Positions 10,742-17,146 of a stretch of 64,000 nucleotides of DNA are shown here, piece after piece. Position 1 is the stretch's first letter. Each line of letters begins with the position of its first letter. Under the pieces are notes generated by a model. It had not been told where the DNA came from. It searched no databases and saw nothing but the letters and a program-made list of their open reading frames with translations. The position numbers and the translations under genes were made by a program. Origin of the DNA: an uncultured Bryobacteraceae bacterium (GTDB lineage Bacteria > Acidobacteriota > Terriglobia > Bryobacterales > Bryobacteraceae); the NCBI GenBank assembly GCA_937924525.1, contig CALDSU010000005.1, forward strand, positions 248,001 to 312,000. The letters are read 5' to 3'.

Positions 10742-13700
10742 TCAGAAGACCGCTTTCACCTGCACTCTGCCGCGCGGGGGCAGCCGCACTTCCTGGACGG
10801 ATGGCGCGTCCTGCCCGCCGATGGTGACGGCGCGGGGCGTGCGTGGCAGCCGGAGAATCACCTCGCGCGCCGAAAAACCGGGAGCGAAGTCCACCGTGAC
10901 CTCGATGGCGTCCCGCGCCGCCCTCGCCTCCAGCGAGACTTTTCCGAAAAAAGTGGCCGCGTCGCGGAACGCGATCCGCTTCGCCGGCTCAAACCAGTGC
11001 GGCGGGACTCCGTCCAGCAAACGCAGCGTATCCTGGGCGGGCTGTTCCACGGTCTCGCGCACCAGGGCCATGCGCAGCAACTGCAAAGTCATGCCCGGAC
11101 CGGCCGAGAGCGGTTCCCCTTCGCACATTTGGGCGCCGGTGAAACCCCAGTTCCAGTGGAAATACCAATACCAGAGGAAGCGCTGCGTCTCCCGCCACAG
11201 GGCGGCGTTGTCCGAACGCAACGGCCAGATGCCGGCCACTTCCGGAAAACTGTACAGGTTCTCCGACATGCCGTGCGCCAGCACGCCGTACAGCGAAGTC
11301 CAGAAGCGATCCCGCCGTCCGTGTTCGAGCAGGCTCTCGTAATAGCCTTTGCCATAAATCTGGTCCAGGCCTACGGTAAAGCGCACCAACCCCGCCGCGA
11401 TGCCGCCGCGCTGCTCCATGTAGTCGGGAATCCAGCGCGAGCGCGGATCCTCCGGCGGGAACAACTTCACTTCGAGCAGCATCGGCGCGAACAGATTCCA
11501 ATAGTTGCCGAGGAACGACCACGTGTGCGTGGACGGCGTGTCCAGGCCGAGGAACGCGTACGGGGGCTCTTTCTCGCGATACTCCCCGCCCGAGCCGATG
11601 TCGAAGGACATGGGAAGAAACGGCAGCCCGGTCGAGCGGTCCACCAAGCCGTCGGCGAACTCGAGCAGGCGCGTGCGGTAGCGCTCCGCCTCGCGCTCGT
11701 AACGGGCGGCTTTTTCCATCTGGCCCAGCAGCCGGAACGCCAGCGCCGTGTCGCGCAGGCCGCGCCAGCAGGTGGCGTTCGCATAGAAACTGTACGCCGG
11801 CGTGGAAATATCGCCCCCGTAGGCATGGCGGGGCAACAGGCCGGCGTACTTGGCATCGCGGTTCTCCTGCGTGACTTTCAGCGTCCACTCGGCGGCGGCC
11901 TCCAGGTCGGGAGCATGGTTTCGCAGCCAATCCAGGCCGTCCGACAGCCGCGCGATGGTGATCGCGTACCACGGCTCGAGACCGTTGCGGTACTGGTGAT
12001 GGTAATTCTTCTTGTCCATCAACTCGGGCGCCAGCATGGCCGTCAGGATCTGGCGCGCTTCCCGGGGGTAACCGGCCTGGGCGAGCGCCACCGCCGGCCA
12101 TCCTTCCTCGATGCCGAAGTAGGACTCATAGAAATACGCGCCGTAGCGGACCGTTTTTTCCCCGTCCTGGGTAATGATCAGGGACTGCGCCAGCAGGTTC
12201 TTGAAGATCTCATTCAGGTGCGGTTCGGGCAGATCCACCGTCATGCCTTCGGTCAGCTTGCGCCGCCACCAGGCGGTGAACCCGGCCGCGGAGCGCGCGA
12301 ACGAAAAGCCCGACAGTTCGCCGGACGAGCGCACCGGCGCGGACACATCCGGCAGGAAGAAGCGGAGCGTCACCGTCTGCCGCGGGGCCAGGGCGAGCGG
12401 ATATACGAGATGGTTTTCGAGCGGCGTCCCTCGCCATTGGCCCGCGGTTTCCGCCCGTAAGACGACCTCGCCGCCGGCGCGCGTAACGGTGCGGCTCTCC
12501 GGATCCCAGCGGTAGCCGGTGGGTTCCGGCGCGTAGACGAGCGGACTGGAACGCGGACCGGGACTGCGCTGCCCCCGCCGGCGGCCCATCGCCAGCGTAA
12601 ACGCGGTGGTGACCGGCCGGGCCGCGAGGTTGGTGATGGCGACTTCCGCGAGCGCGCCGTAAAACGGGTCGTCCGGTGCCGTGACCAACAGGTCCTGCGT
12701 AAAGCGCACGCCGTCGCGCTCGAGCACGGTGCGCGTCGCCGGCAGGTAGCCGTCGCGGAGGGAGGTCTGCGGCCACGCGAGGCCCGCGCCAAACAGCTCC
12801 GGCGTGGCGCCGGCGGCGGGGGCGAACCACCGGTCTCGCGGCTCGGGCGCGAAGCGGCCTTCGTACTGGAGGAACGTCCCGTTCCAGTTCACGATCCACT
12901 CTTCTTCATCGGCCGGGCGTCCGATCGCGGTCCGGGCGAAGTGCAGCGGCAGCAGGAGCCCGCGCATGGCCTGCAAATCGGGGTTGGTCAAAGTGGCGAA
13001 GCGCGCCTGCAGCAGGTCCGTGCGGGAGTGCTGGAGATCGGCCGCGTACTGCGCTCCCGCGGCGTCGTGAAAGGCATGCAGCCGCGCCGGCGGCCCCCCC
13101 GCCGCCGATCGGGCACGGTACCGCTGCGCCGCGACAGGAAGAAAACGCGCTTCTCCGGGGGAGGCGACCCCGTGAGACTCGACGTCGCGCCACCGCAGGC
13201 CGTCCCACCATTGCGCCGTCAGCGGAGACGTTCCCGCCGGCGCCGCCAAACGATTCAACAGGACGCGAAACGGCCACTCGACTTCCCGCCAGCCATCGCG
13301 GACGCCCTGCCGGCTGGCGGGCGCGGCGGCCAGGTCCGCGCCGGGTTGCATCCAGGCGGGCGCCGGGGGCGGTTCCGGCGGAATGGCGATGCCCGGGGCG
13401 GGCGCGGCTTGTCCGGAGAATCGCGCCTGGATCCCGCGCACGGCGTAAAGACGCTGTCCGGGATCCTTCTGCGCCGGAATCTCCAGCCGCACGCGCAGGC
13501 GCGTGGTCGTGACCGGCGCGAAGCGGTACGTCCAGCGAATCGACCCGAAACCCTGCAAGGGCGCGAGCGCCGCGGCGTCCCGCCGGTCCGCCGTCACGCG
13601 CGCCGCCAGCGGCGTCCACGCTCCGTCGCGCCAGTATTCCAGCCGCTGCCCGTGCGGTTCCGGCTGATACGCACGCCCACCCATCGTGACGTACTCGATG

Positions 13701-13894
13701 GCGAGTTCATCGGCCTGCGCCGGCGCCTCCCAGCAGACTCCCGCATCCACCGGATCGAGCTGCAAGCCCGTGCCCAACACCTCGATCGCGGCGTCGGCAA
13801 ACAGCGGCCGGCTCTGCGGAGTCCAGGTGAATGGCTGCGGCTGCGGCGCGCCGAAGGCCAGAGAGGACAGCAAGACCAGACAGCGGGCGGTCAT
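10742..13894 (-). CDS. secreted large glycoside hydrolase-like protein, (alpha/alpha)6-barrel type
   Basis: Start at MTARCLVLLSSLAFGA (signal peptide) inside ORF 10742-14050; EEGWPAVALAQAGYPREARQILTAML, GLEPWYAITIARLSDGLDWLRNHAPDLEAAAEWTLKV. Confidence 0.6.
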   Translation of the reverse strand: MTARCLVLLSSLAFGAPQPQPFTWTPQSRPLFADAAIEVLGTGLQLDPVDAGVCWEAPAQADELAIEYVTMGGRAYQPEPHGQRLEYWRDGAWTPLAARVTADRRDAAALAPLQGFGSIRWTYRFAPVTTTRLRVRLEIPAQKDPGQRLYAVRGIQARFSGQAAPAPGIAIPPEPPPAPAWMQPGADLAAAPASRQGVRDGWREVEWPFRVLLNRLAAPAGTSPLTAQWWDGLRWRDVESHGVASPGEARFLPVAAQRYRARSAAGGPPARLHAFHDAAGAQYAADLQHSRTDLLQARFATLTNPDLQAMRGLLLPLHFARTAIGRPADEEEWIVNWNGTFLQYEGRFAPEPRDRWFAPAAGATPELFGAGLAWPQTSLRDGYLPATRTVLERDGVRFTQDLLVTAPDDPFYGALAEVAITNLAARPVTTAFTLAMGRRRGQRSPGPRSSPLVYAPEPTGYRWDPESRTVTRAGGEVVLRAETAGQWRGTPLENHLVYPLALAPRQTVTLRFFLPDVSAPVRSSGELSGFSFARSAAGFTAWWRRKLTEGMTVDLPEPHLNEIFKNLLAQSLIITQDGEKTVRYGAYFYESYFGIEEGWPAVALAQAGYPREARQILTAMLAPELMDKKNYHHQYRNGLEPWYAITIARLSDGLDWLRNHAPDLEAAAEWTLKVTQENRDAKYAGLLPRHAYGGDISTPAYSFYANATCWRGLRDTALAFRLLGQMEKAARYEREAERYRTRLLEFADGLVDRSTGLPFLPMSFDIGSGGEYREKEPPYAFLGLDTPSTHTWSFLGNYWNLFAPMLLEVKLFPPEDPRSRWIPDYMEQRGGIAAGLVRFTVGLDQIYGKGYYESLLEHGRRDRFWTSLYGVLAHGMSENLYSFPEVAGIWPLRSDNAALWRETQRFLWYWYFHWNWGFTGAQMCEGEPLSAGPGMTLQLLRMALVRETVEQPAQDTLRLLDGVPPHWFEPAKRIAFRDAATFFGKVSLEARAARDAIEVTVDFAPGFSAREVILRLPRTPRAVTIGGQDAPSVQEVRLPPRGRVQVKAVF

Positions 13895-13991: not shown

Positions 13992-14990
13992 CTATCGGGG
14001 TGTTCGCCTCGGGAGGTCGGGGAAGCCGTGAGGCGCGGAGGAACTCCCAATCACCTGCCCGACCTCCACTTCCCCATTGCCCCAAACCGTATGCCGCCCC
14101 ACGCCGGCCCACCTGGCGGCTTCGAGGTAGGGGACGAATTCGGTCAAGTCACCGGCGTACTCGGCTTGTCCGAGGAAGCCGCCGATCGGATGGCGCTGCC
14201 CGGTCCTGCCGCTGCGGCGTTCGGTTTCGATCATCCGGCCTTCCCAGCGGACCAATTCGACCTTGGCCGCGCGCTCGCCCATGGCCCGGAAATCGACCTC
14301 GAGCGGTCCGCGCCCGTAGAGCGCCCGGAGCGTGCTGATCCGGTCGCGGATGCGGCGGAACAGCAGGCCGAAATCCGGACGCGCCACCAGCTCCTGGCCG
14401 GCCTTGAGTTCCGTGGGGGTCACAAACCGCACCCGCAGCCGGCTCACGGCAACGCGCCCTGGATCGTCCAAGACCACCCTGATCGAAGGCAGCGTCTTGG
14501 GCTGGTACAGCATCTCCCCGTCCGACACCAGCGCGCCGGCCTGTTCCTGCTGGTCGAGCGCCTCGACCCGGCGCAGAACCGCCTTGCCCCGCCCCGGTCC
14601 CAGTCCCTCCCGCGCCAGTTGCGCGAAGGTCTGGACGAAATAAGGCGCCACCGGGCGCCGCACATCAAACAAGTGGGCATCAAAATAGAGTCGCGCCCCG
14701 GGCGTCACCGCGCCGCCCAGCCACGACGCGCGGAACACAAAGGGGCGGGGCCAGTCGCGCAGGCCGCTGGGGCCTTCGCCGCGGGCCGCTTGCGGCTCGA
14801 ACACTTGGGCGTAGGGGCAAGACTCGCGGAGTTCACAGTTGGCCACCCCCCGGCACGCGGGTACGCAGGCAAGGCGGCGGAAGATGGTCCCGAACGCCCC
14901 CCGGAGCACATTCCCGGCCTTGCCTGGCGGAAAATACAGAGGGTCGACCGCTTCCAGCCAGAACCGTAGCCGTATCAACGCGAAGTCCAT
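13992..14990 (-). CDS. Cas6-family RAMP protein (CRISPR precrRNA-processing endoribonuclease, PF10040-like)
   Basis: PPGKAGNVLRGAFGTIFRRLACVPACRGVANCELRESCPYAQVFEP, LRDWPRPFVFRA, LRVRFVTPTELKAGQELVARPDFGLLFRRIRDRIS, IGGFLGQAEYAGDLTEFVPYLEAARWAGVGRHTVWGNGEVEV. Confidence 0.82.
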   Translation of the reverse strand: MDFALIRLRFWLEAVDPLYFPPGKAGNVLRGAFGTIFRRLACVPACRGVANCELRESCPYAQVFEPQAARGEGPSGLRDWPRPFVFRASWLGGAVTPGARLYFDAHLFDVRRPVAPYFVQTFAQLAREGLGPGRGKAVLRRVEALDQQEQAGALVSDGEMLYQPKTLPSIRVVLDDPGRVAVSRLRVRFVTPTELKAGQELVARPDFGLLFRRIRDRISTLRALYGRGPLEVDFRAMGERAAKVELVRWEGRMIETERRSGRTGQRHPIGGFLGQAEYAGDLTEFVPYLEAARWAGVGRHTVWGNGEVEVGQVIGSSSAPHGFPDLPRRTPR

Positions 14991-15076
14991 CCCGTGGTTC
15001 CGCCCGAATCCTGGTTGTGCCGCTTCCTTCCAGACGCCTCGGCAAGGCGGCGATTCTCCCGCCAACGCCGGGCTCT

Positions 15077-16147
15077 CTAACCGTGCCGGATCACCAGGAC
15101 GTCTCCGTCCTTGACCACGTAGTCCTTGCCCTCCAGGCGCAGGAGTCCTTTTTCCCGGACTCCGGCATAGCCCCGGTGATCCACCAGCGCCTGCCAGTTC
15201 ACCACCTCGGCGCGGATGAATTTCTTCTCGAAGTCGGTATGGATGGCGCCGGCGGCTTTCACCGCGTGGCTGCCCGCGGGCACGGTCCAGGCGCGCACTT
15301 CCGTTTCGCCGGCGGTCAGGAACGACATCAGGCCGAGCAGCGCGTAGGTAGCCGAGATGATCCGGTTCAGACCGGGCTCGGCCAGGCCGTAGCTCGCCAT
15401 CAGGTCCTGAGCTTCCCCGGGCGACAGTTCGGCCAGTTCGGCTTCAATCTTGCCGCACACCGCGGTCACGGCCGTGCGGGGCCGGGCGGGAAGCGCGGCG
15501 CGAAACTCCGCTTCCTTCTCATGCAGCCGCGGCGCGTCGTCCTCGCCCAGGTTCATCACGTACAACATGGGCTTCTGCGACAGGAATTGAAACCCGCGCA
15601 GCCGCCGGTCGCCTTCGGGGTCGAGCGCCAGCTGGCGGAGCGGCGTATTGGCTTCCAGCAGTTCCTTGCACCGGTGCAGGAGTTCCCACTCGTGGTCGAG
15701 ATCGGCGCTCTTGATCTTCTTGCGGTCTTTCTCGACGCGCTCCAGGCGCTTTTCGACCACCACCAGATCGCTCAGGATCAGCTCGGTTTCCAGGTTGTCG
15801 ATGTCGCGCAGGGGATCGACGTCGCCGAATTCGTGCGGCACGGTTTCGTCGGCGAACACGCGCACCACGTGCGCGAACGCGTCCACCACGCGCAGGCTGG
15901 CCAGGTAGGATCCGTCGCGGAGCGATTCCTTGGAGATCGCCGGCACATCCAGGTACTCGACGGTCGCATGGGTGACTTTGGGCGGCTGGAAGATCGCCGC
16001 CAGGGCCTCCAGGCGGGGGTCCGGCACCCGGGCGACGCCGGTGCGCACGGCCGTGGAGCCGATGCGCGTCTCCTGGTGCACGCCGGTGAGGATGGTAAAT
16101 AGGGAGGTCTTGCCCACCATGGGCAAGCCGATGATTGCGGTCTTCAT
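15077..16147 (-). CDS. ychF: YchF-type GTP/ATP-binding protein
   Basis: MKTAIIGLPMVGKTSLFTILTG; MLYVMNLGED; TGS region RAWTVPAGSHAVKAAGAIHTDFEKKFIRAEVV, DYVVKDGDVLVIRHG. Confidence 0.9.
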   Translation of the reverse strand: MKTAIIGLPMVGKTSLFTILTGVHQETRIGSTAVRTGVARVPDPRLEALAAIFQPPKVTHATVEYLDVPAISKESLRDGSYLASLRVVDAFAHVVRVFADETVPHEFGDVDPLRDIDNLETELILSDLVVVEKRLERVEKDRKKIKSADLDHEWELLHRCKELLEANTPLRQLALDPEGDRRLRGFQFLSQKPMLYVMNLGEDDAPRLHEKEAEFRAALPARPRTAVTAVCGKIEAELAELSPGEAQDLMASYGLAEPGLNRIISATYALLGLMSFLTAGETEVRAWTVPAGSHAVKAAGAIHTDFEKKFIRAEVVNWQALVDHRGYAGVREKGLLRLEGKDYVVKDGDVLVIRHG

Positions 16148-16156
16148 GTTCGTGAT

Positions 16157-17146
16157 CTACAAAGGCACATCTACGTGGAGTAGGATGTCCTCGATGATGC
16201 GGTCGCTCAGATCGGAGCGGCGTTGGGCAAGCGCGGCCTTGGGCGAGACGATGACGCGGTGCGCGCAAACCGGCGCCGCCAGCCGCTTCACATCGTCGGG
16301 CAGCACGTAGTCGCGCCCGTCCACCAGGGCGTGGGCCTGCGCGGCGCGAAACAGCGCCTGGGCGCCCCGGGGACTCACTCCCAGGGCGAGCGCTTCGTGC
16401 CGGCGCGTCTGCTCGACGATCTCGAGCAGGTAGTCTTCGAGCGCGGCATCCACGCGAACTCGGCCGACGGCTTCCTGGAGCGCCAGCACGTCTTCGCCGC
16501 CCAGCACCGGCTCGGGGAAGACCGGCTTGGCCAGAAAGCCGTCGCGCAGGATCGCCCGCTCGCTCTCGCGGCCCGGATAGCCGATGCGGATGCGCATCAG
16601 GAACCGGTCCAGTTGCGACTCGGGAAGCGGATAGGTGCCATGGTGTTCGACGGGATTCTGGGTGGCGATCACCATGAAGGGCCGCGGCAGCGGGTACGAG
16701 CGGCCGTCGATGGTGACCTGGGTTTCATTCATCGCTTCCAGCAGCGCCGATTGCGTCTTCGGCGTGGTCCGGTTGATTTCATCGGCCAGCAGGAAGCTGG
16801 TGAAAATGGGGCCCGGCTTGAACTCGAACGCCTGGGTGCGGGAGTTGTAGACGGTCACCCCCAGCACATCGCTGGGGAGCATGTCGGAAGTAAACTGCAA
16901 GCGGCTGAACGCGCAGGACACGGCACGGGCCAGCGCTTGCGCAAGGGTCGTCTTGCCGACGCCGGGGACGTCCTCAATCAGCAGATGGCCGCGCGCCAGC
17001 AGGCTGGTGAGGGTGAGGGTCACCACCTCCGGCTTGCCCTTCAGCGCCTGGCGGAGCGCATCCCCCAACCGCCGCAGTTGTTCCCGCGCCTGGGCCAAGC
17101 CGGGCGCACTTCGCGCGGGGGCTTCCGTGGTGTCCCGCGTGAGCAT
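16157..17146 (-). CDS. MoxR family AAA+ ATPase
   Basis: GHLLIEDVPGVGKTTLAQALA, FLLADEINRTTPKTQSALLEAMNE, FMVIATQNPVEHHGTYPLPESQLDRF. Confidence 0.95.
   Translation of the reverse strand: MLTRDTTEAPARSAPGLAQAREQLRRLGDALRQALKGKPEVVTLTLTSLLARGHLLIEDVPGVGKTTLAQALARAVSCAFSRLQFTSDMLPSDVLGVTVYNSRTQAFEFKPGPIFTSFLLADEINRTTPKTQSALLEAMNETQVTIDGRSYPLPRPFMVIATQNPVEHHGTYPLPESQLDRFLMRIRIGYPGRESERAILRDGFLAKPVFPEPVLGGEDVLALQEAVGRVRVDAALEDYLLEIVEQTRRHEALALGVSPRGAQALFRAAQAHALVDGRDYVLPDDVKRLAAPVCAHRVIVSPKAALAQRRSDLSDRIIEDILLHVDVPL

Follow-up and report, generated by a model that had tools for sequence, protein, structure and literature searches.

The 64-kb stretch of DNA analysed here (the window) belongs to contig C5 of the assembly of an uncultured Bryobacteraceae bacterium (G000; 5.52 Mb, 99.3% complete) and carries, on its minus strand, a solitary cas6 gene, a member of the Cas6 family of endoribonucleases of the clustered regularly interspaced short palindromic repeats (CRISPR) systems. 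The open reading frame (ORF) is complete and runs from an ATG at position 14990 to a stop at 13992 (332 aa), while an in-frame TTG further upstream at 15065 would give an alternative reading of 357 aa. An earlier note, which was based on the letters of the window, had assigned the protein to the PF10040-type Cas6 family. Indeed, the sequence blocks cited in support are present in the ORF, Pfam PF10040 (CRISPR_Cas6) matches the protein with 57.4 bits (cut-off 25), and the PADLOC Cas6 models match it with E 3.9e-75. The NCBIfam model TIGR01877 scored 13 bits, which is below its cut-off of 58.65, and a direct sequence search against PDB chains gave no match at E 10. An AlphaFold2 model built from 48 sequences (mean predicted local distance difference test score, pLDDT, 90.5) contains the two ferredoxin-like RAMP domains of the Cas6 fold, and its best Foldseek matches in the PDB are solved Cas6 structures (E down to 2.6e-12), i.e. 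T. thermophilus TTHB231 and TTHA0078, S. thermophilus Cas6 and archaeal Cas6. In agreement with the same note, no CRISPR-like repeat family was found in the window, and whole-genome searches for Cas6 (PF10040), Cas1 (PF01867) and RAMP (PF03787) returned no further match within it; the protein is thus encoded beside neither cas genes nor an array in these 64 kb. From this we conclude that the window gene is an intact member of the Cas6 family located outside any CRISPR locus.

The CRISPR locus of the same genome has its own Cas6

The genome harbors a second Cas6, which is 28% identical to that of the window. At the end of contig C3, a type III-A operon (cas6, csx1 (CARF), cas10, csm2, csm3, csm4, csm5) is accompanied by an array with a 37-nt repeat. 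Since the end of contig C12 carries a variant of this repeat, behind which lie a small gene of Cas2 size and cas1, both parts probably represent one complete CRISPR locus that was split by the assembly. According to the earlier note, a CRISPR locus elsewhere in the genome that lacks a Cas6 would make the window gene an ordinary trans-acting Cas6; the III-A locus, however, contains one, arrays of other classes not having been scanned for. The window gene is therefore not the missing Cas6 of this locus, and we rejected this explanation.

The orphan Cas6 is conserved within the Bryobacteraceae

Relatives of the window protein, many of them 45-61% identical, are encoded in most of 61 sampled genomes of the Bryobacteraceae, a family found in soil. 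In a family sample of 170 Bryobacteraceae genomes (≥90% complete), about 143 showed a strong match (E below 1e-40) to this orphan Cas6. Among 297 phylum-wide genomes, strong matches to the window clade were confined to the Bryobacteraceae members sampled; by their scores, the remaining matches are distant Cas6 proteins, several of which are encoded on a contig with Csm3. The ORFs are mostly intact across about 110 loci, and the ratio of nonsynonymous to synonymous substitution rates (dN/dS) in close pairs is about 0.06-0.2 (~0.1), which indicates purifying selection.

In the tree, the window clade and the CRISPR-type Cas6 group of the family are split with full support, and their C-terminal signatures differ (R-x-S-x-R-T-G-Q-x-H-x-x-GGF...GVGR-x-T-V-W-G vs YSSRQ...MGG...GLG). 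An alignment of 48 members revealed R30, R213, R217, Y225, R258, S260, H267 and W303, among others, as invariant. The clade has no invariant N-terminal histidine; H267, R30, R213, R217, Y225, R258 and S260, which are common to the array-linked members as well, may include catalytic residues. The eight clade members with a link to type I operons or arrays have 62 invariant residues, of which the window protein keeps 60, with two phenylalanines changed; this speaks in favor of a nuclease that has stayed active. The protein is probably an active Cas6-type RNA endonuclease, ordinary in fold and probably in chemistry, and what sets it apart is its state as a near-core gene uncoupled from CRISPR.

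A solitary Csm operon is present in nearly all genomes of the family

A RAMP search revealed one extra Cas7-like gene in nearly every Bryobacteraceae genome, and Csm3 of the solitary type was found in 163 of the 170 genomes. The corresponding operon of the window genome is located on contig C2 (Table 1). Its order, cas10-csm2-csm3-csm4-csm5, recurs in most of about 40 loci fetched from relatives, and neither cas6 nor cas1 nor an array was found beside it in the loci examined (about 40). Apparent arrays near the operon (L100, L282, L315) turned out to be tandem repeats without variable spacers and were rejected as CRISPR. The solitary Cas10 of the window genome (486 aa) has a palm domain, and no HD domain was found in it. 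GGDD is present in most solitary Cas10 copies (GGDE in three, AGDD in one, lost in one), and solitary Csm3 shows 80% mean column identity over 18 genomes, with an invariant Asp in the DNPV motif. The solitary operon and the CRISPR-associated III-A operon of the same genome share 41% identity in Csm3 and 26% over a part of Cas10. As for Cas6, the solitary Csm clade stops at the Bryobacteraceae boundary among the 297 phylum genomes.

Two further features of the operon were observed. A conserved extended -10-like element, TG-N-TACAGT, lies just before the cas10 start (e.g. L266, L271, L115), the sequence further upstream differing between species. Among the solitary operons of the first set, about half have, after csm5, a gene for a protein of ~290-300 aa whose sequence resembles that of ExeA-like AAA ATPases (L106 etc.).

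Orphan Cas6 is retained independently of Cas1 and detected arrays

Nineteen genomes (≥90% complete) were without Cas1; the orphan Cas6 was present in 17 of them, the Csm operon in 18, and the two together in 16. With Cas1, the orphan Cas6 is present in 28 of 32. Likewise, its presence does not depend on cognate-like repeats, as it was found in 34 of 38 genomes with and in 109 of 132 genomes without them (p = 0.45). Three spaced TTGAAAC ends, taken as an array pattern, were detected in only 31 of the 170 genomes, and two genomes with 100% completeness in 2-3 contigs (G460, G464) hold the orphan Cas6 and Csm3 with neither repeat pattern, other array classes not having been searched in either case. 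As the gene persists where Cas1 or cognate repeats are lacking, the proposal of the earlier note that it was repurposed for another RNA is a possibility.

Orphan Cas6 was absent from 4 of the 7 genomes without Csm3 and from 23 of the 163 with Csm3 (Fisher p = 0.013, shared ancestry uncorrected), and one genome of 6.3 Mb in 4 contigs (G396) lacks both. For Bryobacteraceae strain F-183, the genome announcement describes four circular sequences and no CRISPRs (PMC8759368). Tree distances between Cas6 proteins remain correlated with the distances for Cas10, Csm3, Csm4 and Csm5 once the YchF distances, a possibly imperfect species-tree control, have been removed (partial r 0.35-0.49, 0/2000 permutations). 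Co-distribution, correlated evolution and weak co-loss most likely reflect a link between the orphan Cas6 and the solitary Csm operon. A shared promoter or leader was considered and rejected, as cas10 often has the conserved extended -10 and cas6 does not.

Some clade members are linked to CRISPR arrays

Repeats beside clade members contain CCCC, an 8-nt loop and GGGG, followed by ATTGAAAC, ATTGAGAC or ACTGAAAC; the reversed control of this cognate-like pattern had no match in the 170 genomes. At least six loci (L039, L042, L073, L088, L217, L248) have a clade member next to a type I operon, and in L056 and L203 clade members adjoin arrays. In one genome (G027), a type I operon with an array of ~4.5 kb has no local Cas6, and the only Cas6 match is the orphan, so that service to arrays in trans is likely in some relatives. 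The suggestion of the earlier note that the gene serves a distant array therefore probably applies to such relatives; in the window genome, the III-A array has a Cas6 of its own.

The CRISPR-linked copies are scattered across the tree of the window clade, and on two IMG/VR contigs (L403, L404) a window-clade Cas6 adjoins genes reading as serine recombinases, which suggests carriage by mobile elements; from both observations it follows that exchange of window-clade Cas6 occurs. At a further locus (L056/L370; contig C13 of G007, about 65-75 kb), the window-clade Cas6 is accompanied by two arrays and by genes for a protein of 1221 aa with three RAMP stretches, a second protein of 481 aa and a fusion of reverse transcriptase with Cas2 (351 aa); this genome has no solitary Csm3.

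As a candidate substrate, we considered and rejected a solitary hairpin-handle RNA that would be conserved in genomes without arrays, the pattern being absent from 132 of the 170 genomes. The single copies that were inspected look like remnants of arrays, like chance-like sites or like the starts of arrays next to type I operons.

Genomic surroundings of the window gene

The positions of the features are listed in Table 1. The neighbors named in the earlier note were confirmed by Pfam as far as the ychF-like and moxR genes are concerned, whereas for the supposed secreted glycosidase-like gene Pfam gave no match above the cut-off. The synteny of ychF and cas6, which the note had proposed to check, is not conserved in relatives: no general neighbor is common to the 110 distinct loci, and neighbors are shared only within sublineages. 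In Candidatus Solibacter relatives, orphan cas6 adjoins genes which, from reading their sequences, we named cold-shock (cspA-like), IF-1-like (infA-like) and AAA/Clp-type ATPase genes. Rfam showed no known structured RNA next to either the window gene or the Csm operon. The YchF-like GTPase of the window belongs to a group of ~70% identity in relatives; since other genomes match it at only ~40%, two YchF-like paralogues may exist in the Bryobacteraceae.

Table 1 Features of the window and the solitary Csm operon of the same genome.
Feature	Position	Strand	Evidence or remark
Solitary cas6 gene, 332 aa, Bryobacteraceae-specific Cas6 clade	13992..14990	-	PF10040, PADLOC, AlphaFold2 fold, family-wide conservation
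C-terminal RAMP domain, residues 187-308 of 332	14067..14432	-	hmmscan PF10040, profile 1-89/89, stretch 212-333 of the 357-aa reading
Clade signature R-x-S-x-R-T-G-Q-x-H-x-x-GGF ... GVGR-x-T-V-W-G-N-G; R258, S260, H267, W303 invariant	14073..14219	-	48-member alignment and 8 CRISPR-linked members
Four-cysteine motif C42-x3-C46-x5-C52-x5-C58, N-terminal domain	14817..14867	-	Alignments; lost in many relatives
YchF-like GTPase, upstream neighbor, 86 nt from cas6, same strand	15077..16147	-	PF06071 112.9 bits; adjacency not conserved in relatives
MoxR-type AAA ATPase, neighbor	16157..17146	-	PF07726 213 bits; adjacency not conserved
Large, probably secreted protein, downstream neighbor	10742..13894	-	No significant Pfam family
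Solitary cas10-csm2-csm3-csm4-csm5 operon	contig C2:62714-67735 (L099:7715-12736)		PADLOC and Pfam matches for all five genes

Discussion

Our preferred interpretation, to which we assign a probability of about 0.5, is that the chromosomal Cas6 of the Bryobacteraceae, uncoupled from CRISPR loci, serves the core Csm complex of the family in trans, as well as arrays with CCCC-8nt-GGGG-ATTGAAAC repeats when these are present. The orphan Cas6 would cut a hairpin RNA of the form CCCC-8nt-GGGG just 5' of a ATTGAAAC-like 8-nt handle, and the cleaved RNA would be loaded in trans into the Cas10-Csm complex. RNA cleavage and cyclic-nucleotide signalling are the predicted outputs of this complex, because Cas10, which has no recognisable HD nuclease, mostly keeps GGDD, and Csm3 keeps its Asp. 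Arrays with such repeats, including those of type I systems without their own cas6, would be processed by the same enzyme. A further-reaching version, which we put forward tentatively, is that the III-A Csm complex and a dedicated solitary Cas6 have both been domesticated in the family as core machinery that does not depend on arrays. This machinery would use Cas6-processed host RNA or RNAs taken from transient arrays to cleave RNA and to signal through cyclic oligonucleotides, instead of providing heritable immunity.

Several points weigh against the preferred interpretation. The dependence between Cas6 and Csm is not strict, since no orphan Cas6 was detected in about 23 Bryobacteraceae genomes that have the Csm operon, and three others have the Cas6 but no Csm3 (G003, G007, G356). 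Orphan cas6 and the Csm operon are not adjacent in the loci examined, and no upstream motif common to cas10 and cas6 was found in the loci compared. The cognate-like repeat pattern has no match in the window genome itself, and the Rfam and hairpin-handle pattern searches revealed no guide RNA for array-less genomes. To these are added shared ancestry in the co-loss test, the limits of YchF as a control, and the fact that most genomes are metagenome-assembled genomes (MAGs), which lose arrays.

The loss of arrays from MAGs is also part of a rather unlikely but serious alternative, according to which the clade is an ordinary trans-acting Cas6, unrelated to the solitary Csm and kept for arrays that come and go, chiefly of type I and some of type III, with arrays being under-counted. 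It is favored by the clade members beside type I operons and arrays, by the long array of G027 without a local Cas6, by the scattered CRISPR-linked copies and the two IMG/VR contigs with serine recombinases, and by the published view that type III loci mostly rely on a Cas6 acting in trans (PMC12669027). However, retention of the orphan gene is independent of both cognate-like repeats and Cas1, G460 and G464 combine it with Csm3 without either repeat pattern, and the array of the window genome has its own Cas6.

A fully repurposed housekeeping ribonuclease, which would process host RNA unrelated to Csm or CRISPR, would fit the family-wide retention under purifying selection, the neighbors in Candidatus Solibacter and the three genomes with Cas6 and without Csm3. 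We regard it as improbable: the window protein keeps nearly all residues conserved in CRISPR-linked members, which is why substrate recognition seems unchanged, neither an Rfam family nor a common non-coding element turned up next to orphan cas6, and in one of these three genomes (G007) the Cas6 copy adjoins real CRISPR arrays. The lack of an array and of other cas genes in the window, and an N-terminal Cys motif that is eroded in many relatives, could finally point to a decaying, functionless relic of a lost CRISPR locus, which we consider very improbable in view of the mostly intact ORFs, the dN/dS of about 0.1 and the invariant residues kept throughout the family.

Under the preferred interpretation, a solitary Cas6 that would supply the core Csm complex in trans, the components resemble known ones in part. 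The window clade shares with known Cas6 proteins (TTHB231, TTHA0078, S. thermophilus Cas6) the fold, the PF10040 domain and a Gly-rich C-terminal loop, and members of it occur beside CRISPR arrays with hairpin-ATTGAAAC repeats; unlike them, the orphan is encoded alone, in unrelated neighborhoods, as a near-core gene of the family and with the signature RTGQxH...GVGRxTVWG. The solitary operon has the canonical III-A order of Cas10, Csm2, Csm3, Csm4 and Csm5, mostly with GGDD, and the Csm3 Asp; in contrast to type III-A, it lacks an array, cas1/cas2, cas6, Csm6/Csx1 and a recognisable HD domain and represents a core locus of the whole family. Array-less type III loci that receive CRISPR RNA or Cas6 in trans are known for III-B, III-C, III-F and III-G (PMC12669027). 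They are similar in that an effector operon without an array obtains Cas6 from elsewhere, whereas the operon described here is of type III-A, near-universal and strongly conserved in one family, including genomes without a detected donor CRISPR locus. For the type III-A system of M. tuberculosis, non-immune roles were suggested (PMC13334790), so that here, too, a conserved machinery may have a role beyond adaptive immunity; unlike in the Bryobacteraceae, arrays, cas1/cas2, cas6 and csm6 are kept in one locus. While trans-acting Cas6 and array-less type III loci are thus already known, no report of the family-wide arrangement of a core III-A module with a solitary Cas6 was found in the open-access literature searched.

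The normal pattern for CRISPR genes is a patchy distribution with rapid gain and loss. In about 60 genera, the intact Cas6 and the intact Csm operon described here act like core genes, and they do so also in genomes without detectable adaptation genes or matching arrays. This makes it a testable question which guide RNA, if any, is used by a Csm complex without a CRISPR array, and it suggests that the Bryobacteraceae may carry CRISPR machinery as ordinary housekeeping genes.
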